Part shown: one piece after another, positions 244 through 36,295 of the stretch
Numbering within the stretch: the first letter of the stretch is position 1
Layout: each line of letters starts with the position of its first letter
DNA from: Chromobacterium piscinae
GTDB lineage: Bacteria > Pseudomonadota > Gammaproteobacteria > Burkholderiales > Chromobacteriaceae
DNA: 64,000 nt
Assembly: GCF_021129175.1 (NCBI RefSeq)
Contig: NZ_JAJOHV010000002.1
Span: 1-64,000, forward strand
Direction: 5' to 3'
Position numbers and translations under genes: made by a program
Notes under the pieces: model-generated
Seen by the model: only the letters and a program-made list of their open reading frames with translations
What the model was told of the DNA's origin: nothing
Databases searched by the model: none

Positions 244-819
244 TTAGCGGTTAGCGGCGAAGATCGCGTCGGGAATTTCGGCCTGGCTGACATTGGGGAA
301 ATCGCGCAGCGACGCGCGCGACGCCTCGTCCCCGGTCACCATCCTCAGCGGCTCGCCGCTGGCGGCGTCCAGATACAGCGTGGACGGCCCCTTGCCCGGA
401 CGCTCGTAGCGCCAGCCGTCGGCCTCGCGGCCCAGCACCTCGCGGCGGCCGATGAAGCGAGCGCCCAGCCGGCGCAGCACGTCGCGCGGCAGGAACAGCT
501 CGGCGAACGGGCCGGTCTCGTCGTCCAGCGGATGCTCGCACAGCTGCTCGCCGGCGGCAGTCCGCTCGCGGCCATAGGCCACCTTCTGCTTCCAGGTGCG
601 GCCGCTGGCGGCGTTGCCGACCTCGGACATCCACAGCCGGTAGCCGGTGTCGCGCTCCGACCAAGGATTGAACAGGCCGTCGATGCGGCAAACATCGCGC
701 TCGTAGTCGAACCAGCAGTAGCCGGACGTCAGCTGGTCATCCGGCAGCATCGGACTCCAGTACGACACGTAGGCGCTGCTCCAGCGCGCCGGCAGCAGCG
801 GCGGTTCCCGGTTTTCCAT
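244..819 (-). CDS. vioE: violacein biosynthesis protein VioE (prodeoxyviolacein-forming)
   Basis: 191 residues, the usual VioE length. VioE is a cofactor-free enzyme with a lipoprotein-carrier-like fold. It takes the unstable indole-3-pyruvate imine dimer made by VioA and VioB and performs the 1,2-indole shift giving protodeoxyviolaceinate; without it the dimer drifts to chromopyrrolic acid. Residues reported as important (Tyr17, Ser19, Glu66, Arg172) are all present at those exact positions. The start ATG (819) is preceded by a strong GAGGGGGCCGC ribosome site, eight bases after the vioD stop. It is the last gene of the operon. From memory it differs at several positions from the ATCC 12472 protein, so this may be another strain or species. 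Confidence 0.97.
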   Translation of the reverse strand: MENREPPLLPARWSSAYVSYWSPMLPDDQLTSGYCWFDYERDVCRIDGLFNPWSERDTGYRLWMSEVGNAASGRTWKQKVAYGRERTAAGEQLCEHPLDDETGPFAELFLPRDVLRRLGARFIGRREVLGREADGWRYERPGKGPSTLYLDAASGEPLRMVTGDEASRASLRDFPNVSQAEIPDAIFAANR

Positions 820-828
820 GCGGCCCCC

Positions 829-1950
829 TCAGCGTTGCAGCGCGTAGCGCAGATTCTGCGCCAGCGCTTCCGGCATCGGCGGCAGCGACTTGCGGCGCGC
901 GTCGAAGCTCTGCACGAACTCGGCGCTGGACAGGTGCATGCGCTCGTCCACCGTCTCGAACCAGACCCGGCTGTTGTCGGCGTGGCCGCGGAACAGCTGG
1001 ACCAGCGGCAGCGCGCGCTCTTCGAAGCTCCTCAGCGCGGCCGGCACGTCGGCTTCGGTGCACAGCGCCTTCACCAGCAGCTGCGCCACCACCACCGCCA
1101 TCGTGGTGCCATGGCCGATGGAGAAGTGGCCGGACTGCAGCGCGTCGCCCAGCAGCACCAGCTTGCCGTCGTGGCAGCGGTCGTGGCTCAGCGTCATGAA
1201 ATTGCGCCAGCCGAGTCCGGGCTGGTTCACTAGGCCGTGGCCCCCCAGCTCGGCCTGGAACACCTTGGCCACGAATTCGGCCGACGCTTCGTCGGACATC
1301 TCGCCCAAGCGGGCGCGGACGTAGGTTTCCTCGCTGCACTCGACGACGAAGGTGCTCATCGTGTCGGAATACTTGTAGGCATGGGCGATGAAGATGTCCT
1401 TGCCGTGGGTGCGGAACACCAGGTTCATCTGGTCGAACAACTGGCTGGTGCCGTACCAGATGTACTTGTTGCGACCATAGTCCACTTGCGGGGCCAGCGC
1501 CTCGGTGAAGTGGGAAGTTTTGTGATTGACGCCGTTGGCCAACACCACCAGATCATAGTCGGCCAGCGGCAGCTCGCCGTGCTCCAGCAGCGGCGATTCG
1601 AAGCGGATGGAGATGCCCTGCGAGCGGCACTTGTCGCGCAAGGCATGCACCAGGCCGCGGCGCTCCACGCCGCACAGCAGCACGCCGGTGCTCATCAGGC
1701 TGGGCTCGTTGTGGTGAACCAGCTTGAAGTCTTCCAGGAACTGCGGATTCAGCTTTTCCGGCGCGTCCAGATAGGACAGCGGATTGGCCGGATGCTGGCC
1801 AGGCCGTCCGGGCAGCACCACGCCCCAGCCCAGCACGTCCTGCCCGTCGCTCTTCTCGACGATGTCTATCGCCCACTGCGGACGCGCCTGTTTCAGTTGG
1901 CTGGCGAACACCAAGCCGGCCGGACCCGCGCCGATAACCAGAACTTTCAT
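829..1950 (-). CDS. vioD: FAD-dependent monooxygenase VioD (protodeoxyviolaceinate 5-hydroxylase)
   Basis: 373 residues. Class A flavoprotein monooxygenase that hydroxylates one indole ring of protodeoxyviolaceinic acid at C5, using NAD(P)H and O2; its activity separates the violacein branch from deoxyviolacein. The dinucleotide-binding motif GAGPAG is at residues 7-12, and the second FAD motif GDALQSGHFSIGHG lies near residue 270, as usual for this group. The start chosen is the ATG at 1950, whose A is shared with the vioC stop (TGATG), which implies translational coupling. A longer upstream reading adds nine residues inside vioC and is not needed. Confidence 0.96.
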   Translation of the reverse strand: MKVLVIGAGPAGLVFASQLKQARPQWAIDIVEKSDGQDVLGWGVVLPGRPGQHPANPLSYLDAPEKLNPQFLEDFKLVHHNEPSLMSTGVLLCGVERRGLVHALRDKCRSQGISIRFESPLLEHGELPLADYDLVVLANGVNHKTSHFTEALAPQVDYGRNKYIWYGTSQLFDQMNLVFRTHGKDIFIAHAYKYSDTMSTFVVECSEETYVRARLGEMSDEASAEFVAKVFQAELGGHGLVNQPGLGWRNFMTLSHDRCHDGKLVLLGDALQSGHFSIGHGTTMAVVVAQLLVKALCTEADVPAALRSFEERALPLVQLFRGHADNSRVWFETVDERMHLSSAEFVQSFDARRKSLPPMPEALAQNLRYALQR

Positions 1951-3239
1951 CAGTTGACCCTTCCTATCTTGTACCAAACGTTCTGCTTTCTCTGGATCTG
2001 CTGCAGCCTGTCGTACGGTTCCGACGTGAAATACAGCTTCTCCGCCATATCCGGCGGGTAAAGGCCGGGAAACTTGCTATGCATGTAGCGGGTGTAGCGG
2101 GCCCGCATGAAAAAGACCGGATTGGAGCAGCTGAGCACGTCGTAGTTAGCGCGCGCCATGTCCTGCATCGCGTCGGCCTGCACCTTGCGCAACTGGGTGA
2201 ACTCGGGAAAGGCCTTGTCCTGGTCGCCCTGATGCCGGTCCAGCAGCTCGATGAAGGTGCGCGCGTCTTCCAGCGCCATATTCATGCCCTGGCCGAGGAA
2301 AGGCGCGGTGGCGTGGGCGGCGTCGCCCAGCAGCAGCACATTGCCTTTGTAGTGGAAGGTGCTGGAGCGGACGTTGATCAGGTCGTTGCTGGGCTTGGCC
2401 AGGAACTGGCGCAGCATCTCGTCGCGCGCGTCCTGCGGCAGCCCGCCGAAGTAACGGTCGAAGAAAGCGCGCATCGTCGGCTCGTCGGTGGTGGTCAGGC
2501 TGGGGCTGCCGCTGTAGGGCAGGCAGACCGCGATGCTGACGCTGCCGTCCGGGATGGTGGCGGCGCGGCCGGCGAACAGGCCGCCGGAGTCCATGCCGAA
2601 GAAGTACAGCGTGTCCTTGCGGTAGCCCAGCGCCTGGGCGTCCGGCAGCACCAGCGTCTTGTAGCCGTGGCGGAAGAAGGTCTGCTGGAATTCGAAACGG
2701 CGCAGGCCGCTCTGCATCGCCTGCCGCACCGCCGAATGCGCGCCGTCGGCGCCGACGATCATGTCGCCCTGCAGCCGCTGCGGCTGGCCGTCCCGGCCCT
2801 GGATCAGCACCGACTTGCCGTCCAGATCCACATCCAGGCATTTGTGCTCGAAGTAGTAGCGGACGCCGGCCAGATTGGCGTATTTGTTCAGCAGCTTCTG
2901 GAACGCCGCGCGGTTGAGCGACAGCGGACGGAAATCCTCCAGCGGCTTCAACGGCCGCATCCGGTGCTGGCCGCCGACCGAGAACGCCATCGCCACGATG
3001 GGTTCGCCGCAAGCCTCCAGCTCCGCGCGCGGAATGCCGGCGGCCAGCACCGACTTGATGCCGCGCACCGTCATGCTGACGCCTATCGCCCGCGAGCTGA
3101 CCACGTCGACATAAGACGACAGGTCCTGCAGCGGATCGCCGCGCTTTTCCACCACATGGACCTCGTAGCCGCGCTTCGCCAGGTAGATGGCGGTCAAACC
3201 GCCGGCGAGCCCGCCTCCGACTATGATTGCTTTTTTCAT
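1950..3239 (-). CDS. vioC: FAD-dependent monooxygenase VioC
   Basis: 429 residues. Flavin monooxygenase that oxidises the second indole to the 2-oxindole, giving violacein from proviolacein, or deoxyviolacein when it acts alone. It starts MKKAIIVGGGLAGG (Rossmann glycines at residues 8-14). The FAD ribityl-binding motif GDAAHATAPFLGQG is near residue 305. The start ATG (3239) is one base after the vioB TGA (TGAAATG), so no independent ribosome site is needed; its own stop overlaps the vioD start. It is homologous to VioD but longer. Confidence 0.96.
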   Translation of the reverse strand: MKKAIIVGGGLAGGLTAIYLAKRGYEVHVVEKRGDPLQDLSSYVDVVSSRAIGVSMTVRGIKSVLAAGIPRAELEACGEPIVAMAFSVGGQHRMRPLKPLEDFRPLSLNRAAFQKLLNKYANLAGVRYYFEHKCLDVDLDGKSVLIQGRDGQPQRLQGDMIVGADGAHSAVRQAMQSGLRRFEFQQTFFRHGYKTLVLPDAQALGYRKDTLYFFGMDSGGLFAGRAATIPDGSVSIAVCLPYSGSPSLTTTDEPTMRAFFDRYFGGLPQDARDEMLRQFLAKPSNDLINVRSSTFHYKGNVLLLGDAAHATAPFLGQGMNMALEDARTFIELLDRHQGDQDKAFPEFTQLRKVQADAMQDMARANYDVLSCSNPVFFMRARYTRYMHSKFPGLYPPDMAEKLYFTSEPYDRLQQIQRKQNVWYKIGRVN

Positions 3240-3240
3240 T

Positions 3241-6237
3241 TCAGGCCTCTCTAGAAAGCTTTCCACAAGCCAAGTCCAGCATCTGCCGGCGGTAGAAATC
3301 CAGCAGCTCCAATTGCGCGTCGGGCAGCCAGCCCGGCGCCAGCGCCGACGCGCGCTCCTGCAGCCGCTCGCAGCGCCGCGCCAGCATCCGGCAGCCCAGC
3401 GCGTAGTCGTCGTAGCTGCGGGTGTCCACCGGGCCGGGCAACGGCGGGCCGGCGGTGCGCCCGGCGATGCCCGACGGCAGATTCATCAGCGCGCAGGACA
3501 GCGGCCGGAGCAGGCCGGTCATCAGGTCGATCGCCGCGTTCATCAGCCGCGAACGCCTGAGGCTGCCCAACGGCTTCACCGCGAAATGCTGCGCCATCAT
3601 CGCGAACATCAGTTCGTACACGCCTTGGTACAAGCCCATCAGCGCCCGCGCCCGCTCGTCTTCGACGCGCTGGCAGCCCGGCTCCTCGTCCAGCACCGGA
3701 TTGCGCAGCGCCGGCAGCGCCGGTTCGAACGGCGCGGGCTGCGCCATGATCCGGCCGGCAAGCTCGCGCAGCCGCTGGAAATGGGAATGCTCGTAGTGCG
3801 GCGAGTCCAGCGCCCCGCCCTCGCCCTGGTCGGTGACGAAGGCGATGCCGAACAGCGCGCTGTCGCGGTCGAACACCTCCAACTGGTAGCCGGGATTCGC
3901 GCGGTTGGTCAGTTCGTTGAGGAAAAGATGGTGTTCGCCGCCGCGCTTGCCCGCCTCGCCGTCGAACAGGTCGGGCAGATCGAGGAAGGCCTGGCGGATC
4001 GCGGCGTAGAAATCGGCGATGGACTTGCCCGGCGCCGGGATGAAATGCGGCCATTCCAGCCGGACGAAACGCGCCAGCGCCGACTCGGAGAACGGCTCCA
4101 GCGCGAACTCGGTGTCCAGGCCGAACGCCTGCCGCGCCGCCTCGCCCATCAGCGGCGCGCCGGCGTAAAACGGCTCGCCCAGCGCCATCAACAGATTGTT
4201 CACCACCAGATAGTGGATCATCTCCTCGTGGGCGATCTCCAGCAGCGCGGCGCGGATGCCGCCGTCGCGGCGCCGGTCTCCGCTTCCGCAGGCCAACAAC
4301 AGCTGCTCCGGCGTCCATGCGCCGTCAGCCACGCGCTGCTGGCCCTGAGCGTAATTGGGAATGGAATAGGCGGCGTACAGATACTGCAGCATCACCGACA
4401 GCTCCAGATCCACTGCCTTGCGCAGCTCGGCCGCCAGCTCCGCCTTGCTCTCGATGCGCGCCGGGCCGGCCGGCGGCGGCGCCTGCAGCCTGGCCTCGCC
4501 CTCGACATGGGCCAGATACTTGAGGAACAGCCTGGCCTTGGGCGCCGACAACTCGCGGGTGCTGGGCATGTAGTAGCTCTTGTTCCGGTTCTGCGGATCG
4601 CACATCTGCCACATCAGTCTGGCGTAGGTCTCGCACTTGCAGCGGTCGGCCAGGCTGAACACCTTGTCGGACATGAACGGGTAGATCAGCTCGTAGTAGG
4701 CCATCACGTGCCGGTACAGGAAGGCGTAATCGACCTCGTCCACCGTCGCGTCATCCAGTTCCCAGTCGTCCGGCAGCACCCGCAGCTGGATCGCCTCCTC
4801 GCCGTCGCCGAGCACGATCCGCGCCGGGCCGGGCCGCAGGCCGGTCAGCCGCCACTCGGCGGCGATACCGTCCTGGCGCGCCTCCACGCAGGCCAGACCC
4901 ATGCCCTCGATCCGGTAGGGAATGGTCGCCCGCTCGCGGGCCTCGCCGCGGAAATAGCTGAGCAGCGCGATGTTTTCCGGAAAGAAACAGCCATGGCGGC
5001 GGTCCGGCGCCTCCAGATAAAGATTGGCGGCGTCTGACTGCGTGACCCAGTCCTGCTCGCGCCACTCGGCCAGCTCGCTGAACAGCGTCAGCGAGCCCCT
5101 GGGCTCGCGCAGCAGCGGCACGTCGACGATGCCGTGGTTCGTCCAGTAATCCTGGTACAGCGCCTGCGGCACCCGCGCCAACAGCGCGCCGTCCTCGTCG
5201 CGCAGCAGCAGGTCGCCCAGCGGCAGCTTGGCGCCCAGCTCGGGCGTGAGCCTGTCCGGCGCGGACGGTTGCGCCGTGCGGGTGGAAAACGGGATCGCGC
5301 AGGCCAGATTCAGTGCCGCGCAGCCGCCGCCCACGCGCAGCGTCAGATCGCCCAACCCTGGTTGGCGCGGCCTCAGCAACCGGCCGGCCGGATAGCTGGC
5401 CAGCTCGCCGCGCCGCCACAGGCCAACCACGCCGACCATGTCGTGGAATACCGGCGAATTGGGTTGCGGCGGCGTCGACATATTGAACAGCGCGTACTGT
5501 ACCGTCAGGCCGAGCGCGTCGTCGTCCTCCAGCGCCAGCTGCAGCCTGCGCCAGGCCTCGGAATCGAACTGCCTGGGATGGAACAGGAAATGCGGATGGC
5601 TCTTGGGCACGGAAAACTGGAACAGCCGCGCCGTGCCGAACTCCTCGTCCAGGAAATGGCCGCCGCGCTCGGCCACATGGCCGCCGCGCGTCCAGCGCGC
5701 GCCGTGGCTATCGTCGATGTCGGCGGTGAACATCCAGGGCGTGCCCGGCCCGGCCCCGGCCGGGCTGATGGTGAATTGGCCGGCGTAGATCTGCACCGCG
5801 TCGCGGCGGGTGGGATCGTTGTCCACCCAGCGCGCGCGGTTGAAGGTGGTGCGCAGGTAGTCGTTGTAATGCCCCCACAGCGCCAGCCTGGCGCCGACCA
5901 GGCCGTCGCCGCGGTCCGGCTCGCCGCCGTCCAACTGCACATGGCTGACGGTGACGCTTTCCCAGGAAAAATGATTGTTGCCGGCCGCGTTGTAACCTTC
6001 CGCCAAGCCGAACGGCCCTTCTGGATCAGGCCGGCCGTCCAGGCCGAAGCGCGGCTGCAGCGACTGCAGGTGATGGTGGAATTCGGTCGGATGGCGCGCC
6101 AGGTCGAACGGCTCGCCATTGATCGACACCGCGTTGCGGGCCATGTCGATCTGGCCGTGCGGATCGCGGTTGGCGGTGGGCGCGTTGACTCGCGCCCAGC
6201 CGCGGAAATGGATGCGTGGAAAATCCAGAATGCTCAT
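3241..6237 (-). CDS. vioB: iminophenyl-pyruvate dimer synthase VioB
   Basis: 998 residues, the family length. Heme-containing enzyme that oxidatively couples two molecules of VioA-produced indole-3-pyruvate imine into the dimer passed to VioE. The N-terminus (MSILDFPRIHFRGWARVN) and a large N-terminal region precede a ferritin-like stretch around residues 590-700, with ELSVMLQYLYAAYSIPN and EIAHEEMIHYLVVNNLLMAL carrying the Glu/His residues typical of VioB. GGGAGA lies five to nine bases before the ATG. An 83-base spacer with a GC hairpin separates it from vioA; downstream it is coupled to vioC. Confidence 0.97.
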   Translation of the reverse strand: MSILDFPRIHFRGWARVNAPTANRDPHGQIDMARNAVSINGEPFDLARHPTEFHHHLQSLQPRFGLDGRPDPEGPFGLAEGYNAAGNNHFSWESVTVSHVQLDGGEPDRGDGLVGARLALWGHYNDYLRTTFNRARWVDNDPTRRDAVQIYAGQFTISPAGAGPGTPWMFTADIDDSHGARWTRGGHVAERGGHFLDEEFGTARLFQFSVPKSHPHFLFHPRQFDSEAWRRLQLALEDDDALGLTVQYALFNMSTPPQPNSPVFHDMVGVVGLWRRGELASYPAGRLLRPRQPGLGDLTLRVGGGCAALNLACAIPFSTRTAQPSAPDRLTPELGAKLPLGDLLLRDEDGALLARVPQALYQDYWTNHGIVDVPLLREPRGSLTLFSELAEWREQDWVTQSDAANLYLEAPDRRHGCFFPENIALLSYFRGEARERATIPYRIEGMGLACVEARQDGIAAEWRLTGLRPGPARIVLGDGEEAIQLRVLPDDWELDDATVDEVDYAFLYRHVMAYYELIYPFMSDKVFSLADRCKCETYARLMWQMCDPQNRNKSYYMPSTRELSAPKARLFLKYLAHVEGEARLQAPPPAGPARIESKAELAAELRKAVDLELSVMLQYLYAAYSIPNYAQGQQRVADGAWTPEQLLLACGSGDRRRDGGIRAALLEIAHEEMIHYLVVNNLLMALGEPFYAGAPLMGEAARQAFGLDTEFALEPFSESALARFVRLEWPHFIPAPGKSIADFYAAIRQAFLDLPDLFDGEAGKRGGEHHLFLNELTNRANPGYQLEVFDRDSALFGIAFVTDQGEGGALDSPHYEHSHFQRLRELAGRIMAQPAPFEPALPALRNPVLDEEPGCQRVEDERARALMGLYQGVYELMFAMMAQHFAVKPLGSLRRSRLMNAAIDLMTGLLRPLSCALMNLPSGIAGRTAGPPLPGPVDTRSYDDYALGCRMLARRCERLQERASALAPGWLPDAQLELLDFYRRQMLDLACGKLSREA

Positions 6238-30750: not shown

Positions 30751-32400
30751 TTAAGAGACGCTTGGCGGCGCGGCCCGGTACAGCAGCGAATGCCAGGGCC
30801 TCAGCTGGCCGTCGACATGCGGCGGGTAGTTGGACAGCAGCAGTTCCAGCGTCCAGCCCTCCGGCACGGCGTCCGGCAGAGGCCGGTAATGGATGTTGTC
30901 GGCGCCGAAGTGGTTGATCACCAGCAGCATTTCGTCATCGCAACGGCGGGTGTAGACCCACAGGCTGGAGTGGTCCGGCGTCAGACAGCGGTAATCGCCG
31001 TCGGCGAACACCCGGTACTGCTTGCGCAGCTGGATCAAGCGCCGGTAGTGATGCAGCGCGGAATGCTTGTCGCCGATGGCGGCGGCGACATTGATCTCGG
31101 CCGCGGCCGCCGCCACGGCCAGCCACGGCTCGACCGCGCTGAAGCCGGCGTGCGGACCGTCGTCCCACTGCATCGGGGTGCGGGCGTTGTCGCGCGAGCG
31201 CTGGCGTATCACCGCCATCGCGTCGTCATCGGAGAAGCCCTCTTCCAGCAACTGCCGATAGGCGTTCAGGCTTTCCACGTCGCGCAGCTGGCCGATGTCG
31301 CCGAAGCCGGGATCAGCCATGGCTATCTCCTCGCCCTGGTAGATATAGGGCGTGCCCTGCAGCCCGTGCAGCGCGGTGGCCAGCATCTTGGCGGACTCGG
31401 TCCGATAGCGGCCATCGTCGCCGAAGCGCGACAAGGCGCGCGGCTGGTCGTGGTTGCACCAGAACAAGGCGTTCCAGCCACCGCCGGCGTGCATGCCGCT
31501 TTGCCAATCGGACAGGATGCGCTTGAGCGCGATGAAATCCACCGTCCCCGGCCGCCACTTCTCGCCGTCCGGGTAGTCCACCTTCAGATGGTGGAAGTTG
31601 AAGGTCATGCTCAGCTCGCCCCGCTCCGGCCGGCTGTAGGCGATGCAATGCTCCAGCGAGGTGGACGACATCTCGCCCACGGTCAGCAAGTCGTGGCCAT
31701 CGAACACCTCGCGGTGCATCTGCTGCAGGTATTCATGCACGCGCGGGCCGTCGGTGTAGAAATGGCGGCCGTCGCTGTCGTCCTCGGAAAACGCCGGGTC
31801 CTTGGAGATCAGGTTGATCACATCCAGCCGGAAGCCGGCCACGCCCTTGTCGCGCCAGAAACGCATCATCTCGAACACCGCCTGGCGCAATGCCGGGCTT
31901 TCCCAGTTCAGATCGGCCTGGGTCTTGTCGAACAGATGCAGGTAATACTGGCCGCTGGCATCATCCTTCTCCCAAGCGTTGCCGCCGAATTTGGACTGCC
32001 AGTTATTGGGCGCGTCGCGCCAGATGTAGAAGTCGCGGTAGGGGTTGTCCCTGCCCTTCAAGGCCTCGCGGAACCAGGCGTGTTCAGTGGAGGTGTGGTT
32101 GACCACGATGTCCAGCATCACGCCGATGCCGCGCCGCTTGGCCTCCGCCAGCAGCAGCTCGAAATCCGCCATGCTGCCGTAGGCCGGATCGATGCTGTAA
32201 TAGTCGCTGACGTCGTAGCCGTTGTCGTGCTGCGGCGAGCGATAGAACGGCGTCAGCCACAGGTAGTCCACCCCCAGCCAGGCCAGGTAATCCAGCCGGT
32301 CCACCACGCCCAACAGGTCGCCGGTGGCTTGGTTGCGATGGCTGCTGAAGCTCTTGGGGTAGATCTGGTACACCACCGCCTGTTTCATGTCCTTAAGCAT
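30751..32400 (-). CDS. treC: trehalose-6-phosphate hydrolase (GH13)
   Basis: 549 residues. Alpha-amylase-fold glucosidase splitting trehalose-6-phosphate into glucose and glucose-6-phosphate in the cytoplasm. VVYQIYPKSFSS opening, DIVVNHTSTEHAWF, nucleophile Asp in GFRLDVINLISKD, acid/base Glu in LLTVGEMSST, and the third Asp in NHDQPRALSRFG. ARTPMQWDDGPHAGFS is shared with other TreC/oligo-1,6-glucosidases. The start at 32400 overlaps the treB stop by eight bases and is preceded by GAGG; an internal ATG at 32388 with AAGGAC too close to it is the alternative. Confidence 0.93.
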   Translation of the reverse strand: MLKDMKQAVVYQIYPKSFSSHRNQATGDLLGVVDRLDYLAWLGVDYLWLTPFYRSPQHDNGYDVSDYYSIDPAYGSMADFELLLAEAKRRGIGVMLDIVVNHTSTEHAWFREALKGRDNPYRDFYIWRDAPNNWQSKFGGNAWEKDDASGQYYLHLFDKTQADLNWESPALRQAVFEMMRFWRDKGVAGFRLDVINLISKDPAFSEDDSDGRHFYTDGPRVHEYLQQMHREVFDGHDLLTVGEMSSTSLEHCIAYSRPERGELSMTFNFHHLKVDYPDGEKWRPGTVDFIALKRILSDWQSGMHAGGGWNALFWCNHDQPRALSRFGDDGRYRTESAKMLATALHGLQGTPYIYQGEEIAMADPGFGDIGQLRDVESLNAYRQLLEEGFSDDDAMAVIRQRSRDNARTPMQWDDGPHAGFSAVEPWLAVAAAAAEINVAAAIGDKHSALHHYRRLIQLRKQYRVFADGDYRCLTPDHSSLWVYTRRCDDEMLLVINHFGADNIHYRPLPDAVPEGWTLELLLSNYPPHVDGQLRPWHSLLYRAAPPSVS

Positions 32401-33847
32401 GCTGCGCGGCCTCGTCTTGGGAAACCGCGGCCAGTTGGCGGCGCGCCAGCAGCCAGGTCAGGCCGAAGGGCAGGATCAAGGCCACCAGCGTGCCCACGAG
32501 GAACAGCGGGATGTGCTGCGGAATGATGGAGATGAAGGCCGGCAGGCCGCCCACGCCGATCGCCGACGCCTTGACGTGGCCCAGGCTGATCAGCACCGCA
32601 GCCGAGGCCGAGCCGGCCAGCGCCGCGTAAAACGGCAGCTTGTAGCGCAGATTGACGCCGAACATCGCCGGCTCGGTGATGCCGAAGAAGGCCGACACCG
32701 CCGAAGTGGACGCCATATTCTTGTCGTTGGCGTTCCTGGCCAGCCAGAACATCGCCAGCGCGGCGCTGCCCTGGGCGATATTGGACAGCGCGATCATCGG
32801 CCAGATGAAGGTGCCGCCCTGGCTGGCGATCAGCTGCAGGTCCACCGCGATGAACATGTGGTGCATGCCGGTCAGCACCAGCGGCGCGTACAGCGCGCCG
32901 AACAGCGCCGCGCCCAGCCACGGCGCCATGTTGAACACGTAAACCAGCGCGTCGGTGACGGCGATGCCCAGGTGGCGGGCCAGCGGGCCGATCACCGCCA
33001 GCGCCAGGAAGCCGCTGACCGCGATGGTGACGATGGGCACCACCAAGAGCTGCACCGCGTTGGGCACCCTGGGCTTCAGCCACAGCTCGACCCGGCACAT
33101 CACCCAGGCAGCGGCCAGGATGGGCAGGATCTGGCCCTGGTAGCCCACCTTCTCGATATGCAGGCCGAACAGGTCGAAGTACGGCACTGACGCGCCATCC
33201 AGCCCGGCCGCGGCCTTGCCGTAGCTCCAGGCGTTGAGCAAGTCCGGATGCACCAGCAGCAGGCCCAGCACGATGCCGAGAATCTCGCTGCCGCCAAAGC
33301 GCTTGGCGGCCGACCAGCCCACCAGCGCCGGCAAAAACACGAAAGAGGTGTTGGCCATCATATTGATCAGCCCCCACAAGCCCGACAGGCCTGGATAGGC
33401 GTCCAGCAGGCTCTTGCCTTCGATGAACATGCCCTTGGCGCCCAACAGATTGTTGGCTCCCATCAGCAAGCCGGCGATGACGATGGCCGGCAGGATGGGC
33501 ATGAACACGTCCGAGAACACCTTGACCAGCTGCTGCAGCCGACTCTGCTTGGCGTCGCCGCTGGCCTTGACGTCGGCGATGGTGGCACGCGCCACGCCGC
33601 CCTGCTTCACCATCTCGGCGTAGACGCGGTCCACGTCGCCGGCGCCGATGACGATCTGGAACACTCCGGCATTGCTGAAATGGCCCTTCACCAGCGCCAC
33701 CTGGCGCAGCGCGTCCCCGTTCACCTTGGATTCGTCGAGCAATGAAATGCGCAGCCGGGTGAGGCAGTGCGCCGCCTGGCGGATATTGGCCGCGCCGCCG
33801 ATGCTTTCCAGTATCTGCGCGGCGATCGCTTGGTAGTCGTGACTCAT
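32393..33847 (-). CDS. treB: PTS trehalose-specific EIIBC component
   Basis: 484 residues. The N-terminal EIIB domain has the phosphorylated Cys28 in AAHCLTRLRISL; the membrane EIIC domain (about 105-475) has about 10 helices with the GITEPAMFGVNLRYKLPF and HHMFIAVD signatures. There is no EIIA domain, so phosphate must come from a separate EIIA-Glc-type protein, as in E. coli. Transports trehalose and phosphorylates it to trehalose-6-phosphate for TreC. GGGGAGAGACG precedes the ATG (33847). Confidence 0.93.
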   Translation of the reverse strand: MSHDYQAIAAQILESIGGAANIRQAAHCLTRLRISLLDESKVNGDALRQVALVKGHFSNAGVFQIVIGAGDVDRVYAEMVKQGGVARATIADVKASGDAKQSRLQQLVKVFSDVFMPILPAIVIAGLLMGANNLLGAKGMFIEGKSLLDAYPGLSGLWGLINMMANTSFVFLPALVGWSAAKRFGGSEILGIVLGLLLVHPDLLNAWSYGKAAAGLDGASVPYFDLFGLHIEKVGYQGQILPILAAAWVMCRVELWLKPRVPNAVQLLVVPIVTIAVSGFLALAVIGPLARHLGIAVTDALVYVFNMAPWLGAALFGALYAPLVLTGMHHMFIAVDLQLIASQGGTFIWPMIALSNIAQGSAALAMFWLARNANDKNMASTSAVSAFFGITEPAMFGVNLRYKLPFYAALAGSASAAVLISLGHVKASAIGVGGLPAFISIIPQHIPLFLVGTLVALILPFGLTWLLARRQLAAVSQDEAAQHA

Positions 33848-33885
33848 CGTCTCTCCCCTGTCCCTTGTCGCGGCGGTGGATTCGC

Positions 33886-33940
33886 TTCCGGCACAATGCC
33901 GGAAATCCGCCTGTTCGTGGCGATTGTCTGCATGACAATC
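33886..33940 (-). promoter_or_regulatory. two hairpins in the treB 5' leader
   Basis: TTCCGGCA (33886-33893), CAA, TGCCGGAA (33897-33904) is a perfect 8-bp stem with a three-base loop. GATTGTC (33922-33928), five bases, GACAATC (33934-33940) is a second inverted repeat at the predicted 5' end of the mRNA. Both would lie in the roughly 90-base untranslated leader and may stabilise the transcript. Neither is followed by a T-run. Confidence 0.45.
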
Positions 33941-33946
33941 AAGGGC

Positions 33947-33975
33947 AAATTAACTCGTACATACAAGATGGTCAA
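33947..33975 (-). promoter_or_regulatory. sigma-70 promoter of the treBC operon
   Basis: On the minus strand, -35 TTGACC (33975-33970), a 17-base spacer and -10 TAATTT (33952-33947). The spacing is ideal and the match good. It lies about 100 bases upstream of treB. A TreR-like operator fills the spacer. Confidence 0.7.
33954..33967. promoter_or_regulatory. TreR-like operator 1 (inside the promoter spacer)
   Basis: CTCGTACATACAAG, near-palindromic with arms CTCGTA / TACAAG. It resembles the TTGTATATACAA-type boxes of GntR-family TreR repressors and sits exactly between -35 and -10 of the treB promoter, where a bound repressor would exclude RNA polymerase. Confidence 0.7.
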
Positions 33976-33977
33976 CG

Positions 33978-33991
33978 CTCGTATGTACGAG
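33978..33991. promoter_or_regulatory. TreR-like operator 2 (upstream of -35)
   Basis: CTCGTATGTACGAG, perfect 6-bp arms around TG. It lies two bases upstream of the -35 box and is centred 24 bases from operator 1, about 2.3 helical turns. Together the two sites flank and fill the promoter. Confidence 0.7.
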
Positions 33992-34217
33992 TTTGCGAAA
34001 AGTCAAACCGACTGCCGCCATTTCGCAACAGAGGGAAAAGCAAAGGCCCAGGCGGATCACTCCGCGCCGGGCCGGTCTCATTCATCTGTTCTGCAATCAA
34101 CGGTGGATCGTCCCTGCGGGGCATCCCCCTACAAAAGACCATCTGCGGTAAGCGCGGAATCTCGGCAAAGCCGGGGGTTCCGCCGAGTTGCAATTTCATG
34201 ACTATATCAAGGGTACG

Positions 34218-34289
34218 TGGTAACCTTTTGGTCAAGAGGGATGCTACGCCGGCAAGCAGGCTTCACGCCCCTTACCTCCAACATTAGGC
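34218..34289 (+). other. attC-like recombination site (integron cassette boundary), degenerate
   Basis: The left part has GGTAAC (34219-34224), then TTTTGGTCAAGAGGGA; the right part has CCCCTTACCTCCAAC followed by ATTAGGC (34283-34289). This mirrors the usual attC layout, in which TAAC plus TTCAAGAGGGA on the left pairs with CCCCTTAACTTCAAC plus GTTAGGC on the right around a variable loop (here about 26 bases). The core G of GTTAGGC is A here and the left core is poor, so the site looks decayed. The preceding 34000-34217 holds no gene I can support. Confidence 0.5.
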
Positions 34290-34298
34290 TGCACTCCC

Positions 34299-34574
34299 AT
34301 GAGCATGTTTGCACATCAAGTAGAGCTCATTGAATCATCCGAAAACAGAGCGCTCTATCGATTTTCCCCTGATCTTCTACATGCACCAAATGCACGCGGG
34401 GTCGTAGAGGTTACACACCTTGATTGGACATATATGCTGATTGAAGCATCAAACGGAGAAGAGCTTGGGGCTGTATCATCAGACACCGGCTGTTTAAGAC
34501 GCTTGGTCCCAAGAATCAAAGAATCCTACAACAGGGAAAAGAGTTGGCCTTTGAAATGTTGGTTCACCGCTTAG
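34299..34574 (+). CDS. hypothetical cassette-type protein
   Basis: 91 residues, no recognised family. It begins MSMFAHQVELIESSENR and has a tryptophan-containing middle (VTHLDWTYMLIEASNG). The ATG is ten bases after the right core of an attC-like site, there is no Shine-Dalgarno sequence, and the stop is 41 bases before a second attC-like site: the exact compact layout of integron gene cassettes. Base and codon use is far more AT-rich than its neighbours, a sign of transfer. It is oriented against the tre operon. No promoter is visible, so expression is uncertain. Confidence 0.55.
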   Translation: MSMFAHQVELIESSENRALYRFSPDLLHAPNARGVVEVTHLDWTYMLIEASNGEELGAVSSDTGCLRRLVPRIKESYNREKSWPLKCWFTA

Positions 34575-34615
34575 ATAAGTTCTATGCAACTCTCACATTG
34601 CAATAAACCATACCG

Positions 34616-34704
34616 GCCTAACAATTTGCTTAAACCGACGACCAAAATTTACGCCTTTGGTTTCTCTCAGTCGCTACGTTCCTTCAGCGCAGCTTAGCTT
34701 AGTT
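34616..34704 (+). other. second attC-like site, left half well preserved
   Basis: GCCTAAC (34616-34622) fits the RYYYAAC inverse core; it is followed by AATTTGCTTAAACCGACG, close to the AATTCGTTCAAGCCGACG left arm of many class 1 cassette sites. ACCAAA (about 34641) and TTTGGT (about 34656) could form the variable loop stem. On the right, GCAGCTTAGCT resembles GCGGCTTAACT, but the GTTAGGC core is not recognisable (TTAGTTC instead). This suggests a partially deleted or mutated site. Confidence 0.45.
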
Positions 34705-34742
34705 CAAAAAATTAACCATACAAAATAACCACAGAGATTGCC

Positions 34743-35369
34743 ATGCAATTAAAAATCTTTATTGCTCTCACGTTTTCGCTATTTACTCAGACAACGGTCG
34801 CAGGGGAAACAAGAGAGAAATTGATATTAGATCAATACCCAAGTGATACGCCATGGCAAGAGGTAACAAACAAATTCAATGGCGATCAATGGCTTCGTGA
34901 GCAAATACCCTCTGATCAAAAAATTGAAACGCATAAGGATATACTCACTGCGCAGTCCTTCCCCCAGCAAAAGACTACTGAACCTTCATCTTTCTTAAAG
35001 GGAATGTTTTCACGCGTGAGCGAAGCATGTGACCATGTAAGAGTTAATGGACCAAAGGAACAACAAGAAGGTGGGTACACAGTTGCTTACGCTCAAATCT
35101 ATTGCGGCAAACAAAAAGGCGCAGACTTTGGCGTAAATATGTTTTTCAAAGCAATAAAGGGGAGTGACGCTCTTTACGTCGTCCAAAGAGAATTTCGTGT
35201 ACCCCAATCAGAGATAAGTGGAGTGACAAGCTTCACTAAAGATCAAATGGAACAAATGCTGTCGCTAATAAAGGGACAGTCGGTTGCCAACGGCTACCTA
35301 GTCAAATCTGTCTATTTGTGCGGTGAATTATCAACCGACAAACGTTGCGAGACACATCAAGTTCATTGA
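34743..35369 (+). CDS. hypothetical secreted protein in the AT-rich insertion
   Basis: 208 residues. A signal peptide (MQLKIFIALTFSLFTQTTVA) is followed by a charged mature region; four Cys (one in SEACDHV, one in YCGKQKG, two in LCGELSTDKRC) may form disulfides. I recognise no family. A weak AGAG lies before the ATG (34743). Like the preceding ORF it is AT-rich and reads against the tre operon, so it is probably acquired DNA; whether it belongs to the cassette array is unclear because no attC-like site follows it. Confidence 0.55.
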   Translation: MQLKIFIALTFSLFTQTTVAGETREKLILDQYPSDTPWQEVTNKFNGDQWLREQIPSDQKIETHKDILTAQSFPQQKTTEPSSFLKGMFSRVSEACDHVRVNGPKEQQEGGYTVAYAQIYCGKQKGADFGVNMFFKAIKGSDALYVVQREFRVPQSEISGVTSFTKDQMEQMLSLIKGQSVANGYLVKSVYLCGELSTDKRCETHQVH

Positions 35370-35404
35370 GCTACCGCGCCACCCTGAATATCACAAAGCC
35401 CGTA

Positions 35405-35433
35405 GGATGGATGCCTCAGAGAGGCGATCCACC
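35405..35433. repeat. palindromic repeat-like element (GGATGGAT...ATCCACC)
   Basis: GGAT (35409-35412) plus GCCTC (35413-35417), loop AGA, GAGGC (35421-35425), one bulged G, ATCC (35427-35430). The form GTAGGATGGAT...GATCCACC resembles short dispersed repeats common in beta- and gammaproteobacterial intergenic DNA. Only one copy is seen in this window. The rest of 35370-35590 holds no gene; this stretch marks the right flank of the AT-rich insertion. Confidence 0.45.
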
Positions 35434-35590
35434 ACTTTGTTGGTTGAAAGGTAGGTCGGCAGGTCCGCAAAATAGGGGGTAGACCACAATTTCCATCAAT
35501 TCAGCCAGATGAAATTAAACGTGGCCTGCCCCTTCCCCACCCAAAGTCCGGTTACACAAACTCTGCACACCCTCGCCCTGAGGGAAAATG

Positions 35591-36295
35591 CTAGCGCCTC
35601 GCAATATCCGTAAAATAAAACTTGTCCAGCCGATGCCGCGACTCGGTGTATTCGAACAGCCGTCCGTCGTAAAGGTGGGTCAGGTTTTTGACCACGATCA
35701 CGTGGTCCATGCCGTTCAGGTCCAGGTAGCGGCGGTCGTCGTCGCTGCAGGGCTGGGCTTCGATGATGCGCTGGGCGTAGCTGATGGTCAGCCCCAGATC
35801 CTGCTCGATGTAGCGGTAGATGGAGCCGGCGGCGATGTCCGCGTTCAGGCCCGGCACCAGGCCGGCGACGAAGTGGTTGATGTCCAGGATCACGTTCTCG
35901 CCGTCGATATTGCGCACCCGCTTGATCTTGACCATGGCGGTGCCCTCGGCCAGGCCGGTGGCCTGGGCCAGCGCCGCGTCGGCCGGCAGCTGCGCCAGCT
36001 CCGCCACCCGCGACACCACCTTGCGCCCCATGCGCTCGTTCATTTCCTGGAAGCTGACGATGCCGCTGAGCTGGAATTCGATATTGCCCGGCTTGAGCAC
36101 GAACATGCCCTTGCCGTGGATTTTCTGCACATAGCCGCGCTCCTGCAGCATGTCCACCGCCTTGCGCACGGTGCCGCGGCTGGCGTCGTAGTGGTGCATC
36201 AGCTCGGACTCTGACGGGATGCGCTCGCCCTGGGCGTAGCGCCGGTTGTCGATGTCGGCGACGATGTCGGAATAGATTTGATGGTATTTGTTCAC
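35591..36295 (-). CDS. treR: GntR-family trehalose operon repressor
   Basis: 234 residues. N-terminal winged helix (MNKYHQIYSDIVADIDNRRY...SESELMHHYDASRGTVRKAVDMLQERGY, in parts) then a UTRA effector domain (about 90-230). The opening, the KIHGKGMFVL hairpin and the SGIVSFQEM stretch strongly resemble Bacillus subtilis TreR, a repressor relieved by trehalose-6-phosphate. Two operators of the right type lie in front of treB. E. coli TreR is a LacI-type protein, so this locus uses the GntR version. The gene is in the same direction as treBC but 1.74 kb upstream, with foreign-looking DNA between. Confidence 0.85.
   Translation of the reverse strand: MNKYHQIYSDIVADIDNRRYAQGERIPSESELMHHYDASRGTVRKAVDMLQERGYVQKIHGKGMFVLKPGNIEFQLSGIVSFQEMNERMGRKVVSRVAELAQLPADAALAQATGLAEGTAMVKIKRVRNIDGENVILDINHFVAGLVPGLNADIAAGSIYRYIEQDLGLTISYAQRIIEAQPCSDDDRRYLDLNGMDHVIVVKNLTHLYDGRLFEYTESRHRLDKFYFTDIARR

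Follow-up and report, generated by a model that had tools for sequence, protein, structure and literature searches.

A probable integron cassette remnant between treB and treR in Chromobacterium piscinae and candidate promoter-attI modules in the genus

What is the AT-rich DNA that lies between the trehalose genes treB and treR in Chromobacterium piscinae, and did an integron place it there? The insert occupies positions 34222 to 35472 of the 64,000-nucleotide stretch that we analysed (the window, from contig NZ_JAJOHV010000002.1). It has a GC content of 44.5% versus 64.8% across the window, and 3 of 1255 stretches of insert size are equally low in GC, starting at 34201, 34251 and 34301. An earlier note on this DNA had interpreted the insert as a remnant of integron cassettes. 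The parts on which that interpretation was built, two attC-like stretches, two ORFs, their spacing and the AT-richness, were all located as described. We refer to the window's own genome as G000 and to the compared genomes by other G-numbers.

The insert and its genes

The features of the locus are as follows (R1 and R2 are the attC models described below).

32393..33847, minus strand: left boundary gene, an ORF that we take to be treB, the PTS trehalose transporter; tblastn orthologues in 15 of 15 fetched loci
33848..34221: conserved left arm of the treB-treR interval, by blastn homology to relatives
34218..34289, plus strand: site 1, attC-derived, with a decayed hairpin (R1 16.9 bits, R2 31.4 bits, fold z +0.98)
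34222..35472: variable AT-rich insert, its cargo not common to the other filled genomes
34299..34574, plus strand: 91-residue ORF, a putative cassette gene
34616..34717, plus strand: site 2, a probable half-decayed attC (R2 13.6 bits, E 0.45; left half good, right half poor)
34743..35369, plus strand: 208-residue gene, a length attained by 0 of 1000 shuffles
35473..35590: conserved right arm, 92% identical to G008 from interval position 1626
35591..36295, minus strand: treR, GntR/UTRA regulator and right boundary gene (Pfam GntR and UTRA); orthologues in 15 of 15 fetched loci

The ATG of the 91-residue ORF (34299) is separated by 9 nt from the end of site 1 (34289), and its stop (34574) by 41 nt from site 2 (34616). 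Palindromic repeats are present in both arms of the interval (window positions 34098-34190 and about 35369-35450) and have many matches elsewhere in the genus. At Rfam gathering thresholds a tRNA is the sole match in the window.

Of 2000 shuffles of its segment, 15 yield an ORF as long as the 91-residue one. Among 84,980 species a pattern search returned no relative, and 369 genomes of the class contained, besides the ORF itself, two weak matches (E 0.005 and 0.008). Searches of Pfam, NCBIfam, PHROGs and PADLOC assigned it to no family at a convincing E-value, and no promoter-like match was found 5' of the ORF. The 208-residue protein, whose N-terminal stretch resembles a signal peptide by eye, has no family in Pfam, NCBIfam or PHROGs. 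A search of 72,556 plasmids gave no match. Among the 19 genus genomes the window's own is the only one with the 208-residue gene; the 42 other genomes of the family include four that have it. The closest relative, at 66-71% identity, has no attC nearby; it is carried by G601 and a Pseudogulbenkiania MAG, which have the same ORFs and look like a single record. A distant relative in G594, from another genus of the family (26-27% identity, E 6.7e-25), is flanked by two attC of an array in which R1 has eight matches at E≤2.3e-4, so that this protein family can occur in a cassette. The adjoining kilobase of that array carries an integrase gene, aligned over 330 residues at 67%. The G594 integron combines a long, apparently uninterrupted integrase match with at least eight similar attC. 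The predicted structure of the 208-residue protein (mean pLDDT 76.9) has a PsbP-like/Mog1-like fold, and a structure search gave five PDB matches at E≤0.001, the best being PsbP (E 1.2e-4, TM 0.40), a modest resemblance that says nothing sure about function.

Covariance models and folding of the two sites

We scored both sites with two covariance models of attC. The first, R1 (16 pairs), was trained on 19 attC of other genera only, from the same order and class, each within 12 kb of an uninterrupted integrase gene. These were hand-picked from 34 candidates found with a loosened attC pattern, and the 15 others were dropped as redundant or doubtful; a strict attC pattern on integron flanks had proved too tight and was replaced by the looser one. 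The second, R2, is a genus model built from 22 attC in 12 other genus loci, none of them at treB-treR, that were R1 matches at E≤0.006.

Site 1 (34220-34289) is the top match in the 64 kb by R1, run with filters off, at 16.9 bits and E 0.021, with the runner-up at 10.8 bits and E 0.91; these and all R2 E-values are rough, as the calibrations were short. R2 likewise places site 1 first in the window (31.4 bits, E 1.1e-5). Site 2 is absent among the 11 R1 matches at E≤10 in the window. By R2 it ranks second of nine window matches with a score that is not significant (13.6 bits, E 0.45); for a single strand of the 1.25-kb insert alone, we estimate that about 0.004 chance matches would be expected at this score. 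Neither model found an attC 3' of the 208-residue gene in the window.

Folded as single-stranded bottom strands, neither site exceeds its own shuffles (z +0.98 for site 1 and +0.95 for site 2; of 200 shuffles per site, 167 and 165 fold equally well), so that, judged by the bottom-strand hairpin of a functional attC, both look inactive. Better-scoring attC used for comparison gave z −2.20 (G008) and z −1.59 (contig C35 of G000). That both sites are chance resemblances and the insert is unrelated to integrons is highly improbable. The E-value of site 2 and the poor folding of both sites would fit such a reading, but site 1 reaches its E-value by a model that was not trained on it, and the two sites hold ranks 1 and 2 in the window, on the same strand and at cassette spacing. 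We conclude that site 1 is attC-derived, that site 2 is probably half an attC, and that both are decayed.

How far the insert fits the known classes differs from class to class. A cassette is an ORF followed by an attC with R''-L''-L'-R' arms. The proposed cassette layout stands as to the spacing of the 91-residue ORF, but the right arms of the site 2 that follows it are poor, so that the following attC is only half good. The window holds no complete integron (intI plus attI). The earlier assignment to the CALIN type agrees with the absence of an integrase, the significance of site 1 and the ORF in place, but is less firm as to the number of attC, since one site is significant and the other has E 0.45, where the IntegronFinder default is at least two attC per CALIN (according to the accessible part of PMC9024848).

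The treB-treR interval and a leader module across the genus

We compared the treB-treR intervals of 16 of the 19 genus genomes, including the window's (G010, G011 and G013 yielded none and were left out). The interval ranges from 239 to 16,583 bp. Six short intervals (239-485 bp) cluster in a tree of treB and treR, and the ten long, or filled, intervals span 1211 to 16,583 bp. By blastn the filled intervals have no common cargo beyond the flanks, the repeats and a leader sequence described below. Homology to the left flank of G000 stops at window positions 34220-34222 when six of the nine filled relatives are compared; with the other three it stops some 30 bp sooner. Right-side homology with G008 restarts at 35473. 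The interpretation as a cassette remnant is supported on both points by which the earlier note would have had it refuted, in that site 1 scores above background by R1 and R2 and the interval varies strongly in size, with none of the G000 cargo common to the ten filled genomes.

Intervals of three of the nine filled relatives (G008, G017 and G003) contain an attC at E<0.02 by R1 or R2. The intervals of G018, G014, G016, G007, G009 and G002 and the six short ones have no attC by R2 at E<0.1. The leader is present in four of the nine (G007, G018, G014 and G003). The gene behind the G018 leader encodes an AIPR/AbiU-like protein (2.1e-109 to AbiU), a candidate anti-phage gene. Among the other intervals, G017 encodes a WapI-like immunity protein and G008 a Bflower protein, and an HNH protein of G007 also matches type IV restriction enzymes, though more weakly; the cargo proteins of G014, G009, G003 and G016, together with a second G008 protein, have no Pfam family. 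The interval of G002 (C159) holds 16.6 kb of other genes, whose ORFs, judged by eye, resemble those for an outer-membrane efflux protein, a peptidase-type ABC exporter, an adaptor and a long calcium-repeat-like protein; not every insertion at treB-treR therefore looks cassette-like.

This G002 stretch, with its transporter and repeat-rich ORFs, is what could be expected if treB-treR were a general insertion hotspot filled by homologous recombination in the flanks, with site 1 a passenger in already decayed DNA and no integrase ever active at the spot. Several filled intervals without detectable attC and the recurrence of the palindromic flank repeats in the genus point the same way. We regard this reading as unlikely in view of the attC in three of the nine filled relatives and of the attI-promoter leader in four, each with a different gene behind it. 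It is decidedly unlikely that a cassette inserted directly at a non-classical genomic site (attG) between treB and treR, with no local attI. Direct insertion should leave a right half-core at the left junction, but nearly a whole attC stands there, and four relatives have the leader at the same spot. The sharp left boundary in six of nine relatives would suit an attG insertion, and such insertions, which resemble our case in being chromosomal cassettes outside an integron, have been described (Loot et al. 2024, as cited in the accessible parts of PMC12901181 and PMC12444791).

The leader comprises about 150 bp ahead of the first cargo gene and is common to the G007, G018, G014 and G003 intervals. 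As read from the sequence, it consists of the reversed first codons of an integrase, a promoter-like pair and a core, GGGTGGCTAATTACAAGTTAGGC, that differs between copies. A TTGACG-17-CAAAAT-like pair, a candidate promoter directed into the cassettes, is present in 12 of 16 aligned copies (simple pattern, spacer 17). At G002:C94 an N-terminal integrase remnant lies directly before the leader, and five attC (27.3 to 55.4 bits, all at E<1e-4) come after it; the leader thus lies there at the 5' end of an integrase and ahead of an attC array, as an attI-Pc region requires. Copies in G014 (C1:136 kb) and G007 (C1:538 kb) also adjoin an integrase remnant. Because integrase remnants adjoin it in these three genomes, we interpret the leader as the intI-attI junction of an old integron. 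We rejected the alternative of a plain promoter repeat, as the leader directly abuts integrase remnants in G002 and G014.

Of the 19 genus genomes, 10 carry the leader by a sequence profile built from 12 copies (R3), with 25 copies in all and up to seven per genome. Thirteen of the 25 lie outside the training set; one of these has the same module sequence as a training copy, and some are orthologues or earlier blast matches. R3, run with stricter filters on nine other genera of the family (42 genomes), found no copy. The window is without a leader copy (best R3 match E 2), and G000 has two elsewhere in its genome. In G000:C35:14000-22500 (3943-5117 of the piece) two leaders lie about 1 kb apart with an attC between them (R1 32.5 bits), and a different small ORF follows each.

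In the approximately 1.5 kb fetched on each side, tblastn found an integrase remnant at 4 of the 25 leader loci, corresponding to three places, and none in any of the 15 treB-treR loci or in the window. The statement of the earlier note that the window lacks an integrase gene is thus confirmed, and it extends to the G000 genome, where no integron integrase lies above the family cut-off (TIGR02249). The same is true of every leader-bearing genome; the assemblies are partly draft. The sole genus integrase above the cut-off is that of G012, a genome without a leader, and four stops interrupt it. In the G012 integron (C1:4556000-4575000), attC of 41.6 and 33.3 bits (R1) lie behind the stopped integrase; the treB-treR interval of this genome is short. 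Integrase remnants next to attI and attC arrays occur in G002, G014, G012 and G008. Further decayed integrase genes were seen at G008:C1:194000-203000, with attC behind, and in G004:C151, both at loci without a leader. In a genus-wide attC scan each genome gave 508 to 5481 candidates, of which 150 were scored; the scan missed known sites, and we drew no counts from it.

Exchange behind the leader and its precedents

We compared two other leader loci in four genomes each, 12 pairs in total. At the first (G008, G014, G018 and G007) upstream homology spans the leader and stops at most 9 nt from the core AAGTTA in all six pairs. At the second (G000 C35, G008, G017 and G011) homology stops within about 20 nt of the core in five of six pairs; in the remaining pair, G000 and G008, it runs through a common cassette and stops at the end of that cassette's attC. 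Homology restarts further downstream in 8 of the 12 pairs, and for the other four no restart is among the matches listed in the fetched pieces. The ORF behind the core differs between most leader copies, the exceptions being G000 and G008, which have the same ORF at the second locus, and G000 and G017, which have the same ORF behind their second copies. Such a footprint is what site-specific exchange at attI and attC would leave. Between G008 and G014, 224 bp are identical and end exactly at AAGTTA, in pieces otherwise 84-88% alike whose next longest identical run is 73 bp. The identical block (L123 3314-3537; reverse view of L122, 3578-3801) appears, in two different species, as if the module had been copied recently.

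We are fairly confident that the insert represents the remains of a decayed integron cassette array at a chromosomal landing site. The spot between treB and treR would have served as a landing site for cassettes in the ancestor of the ten genus genomes with filled intervals, where an integrase then in the cell or supplied in trans may have inserted and exchanged cassettes at the treB-treR attI. In the window's lineage a deletion reaching the left core of site 1 would have removed the leader and whatever preceded site 1. The attC hairpins would then have decayed, leaving the array fixed and no longer mobile.

What the window carries is most likely a CALIN-like remnant of a cassette, lying at one of several docking sites that stem from a lost integron and lack an integrase. 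More broadly, modules of about 150 bp combining attI and promoter, left by a dying integron at several conserved loci of the genus, may each have captured and expressed a different cassette with the integrase acting in trans, treB-treR being one such site and the window showing its terminal, fixed stage. Because only 8 of the 12 pairs gave matches on both flanks, we lowered our estimate for this broader scheme and consider the odds for and against it about even.

The closest precedent that we have seen is Xanthomonas, where integron activity has been progressively lost and CALINs occur at recurrent loci, as set out in the accessible part of PMC12444791. The insert is like a CALIN in having attC-derived sites and a small ORF with no integrase nearby, at chromosomal positions that recur as in Xanthomonas. 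It differs in having one significant attC, and four relatives have an attI-promoter leader, which is outside the CALIN definition. The integrase remnants that adjoin attI and attC arrays in the four genomes named above resemble a sedentary chromosomal integron in decay, whereas the module occurs at several loci per genome, mostly without a remnant in the fetched 1.5 kb. Delta-attI-type gene cassettes, as presented in the accessible part of PMC12901181, similarly place an attI away from its usual position beside intI, but they replace attC inside mobile integrons, whereas here whole promoter-attI modules are found at chromosomal loci. The gene-less promoter cassettes of Vibrio superintegrons (accessible part of PMC11014356) supply a promoter segment that drives downstream cassettes, as the promoter-like pair of the module may do; the module of this genus differs from them in its integrase 5' end and attI-like core.

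The authors of IntegronFinder state that descriptions of attI sites beyond class 1 are poor and that the program does not detect them (accessible part of PMC9024848), so modules of this kind would be overlooked. The literature that we searched, which omits most subscription journals, gave no description of dispersed promoter-attI modules and no paper on a Chromobacterium integron. The usual picture of an integron has a single integrase and a single attI, and cassettes found elsewhere are filed as CALINs. In Chromobacterium, promoter-attI modules, as we read them, recur in genomes without an integrase above the cut-off, and the gene behind them differs between species. The window's own element would be the ordinary end of such a system, a fixed remnant. 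If the modules still work, a single visiting integrase could load cassettes at several expressed positions of the chromosome.
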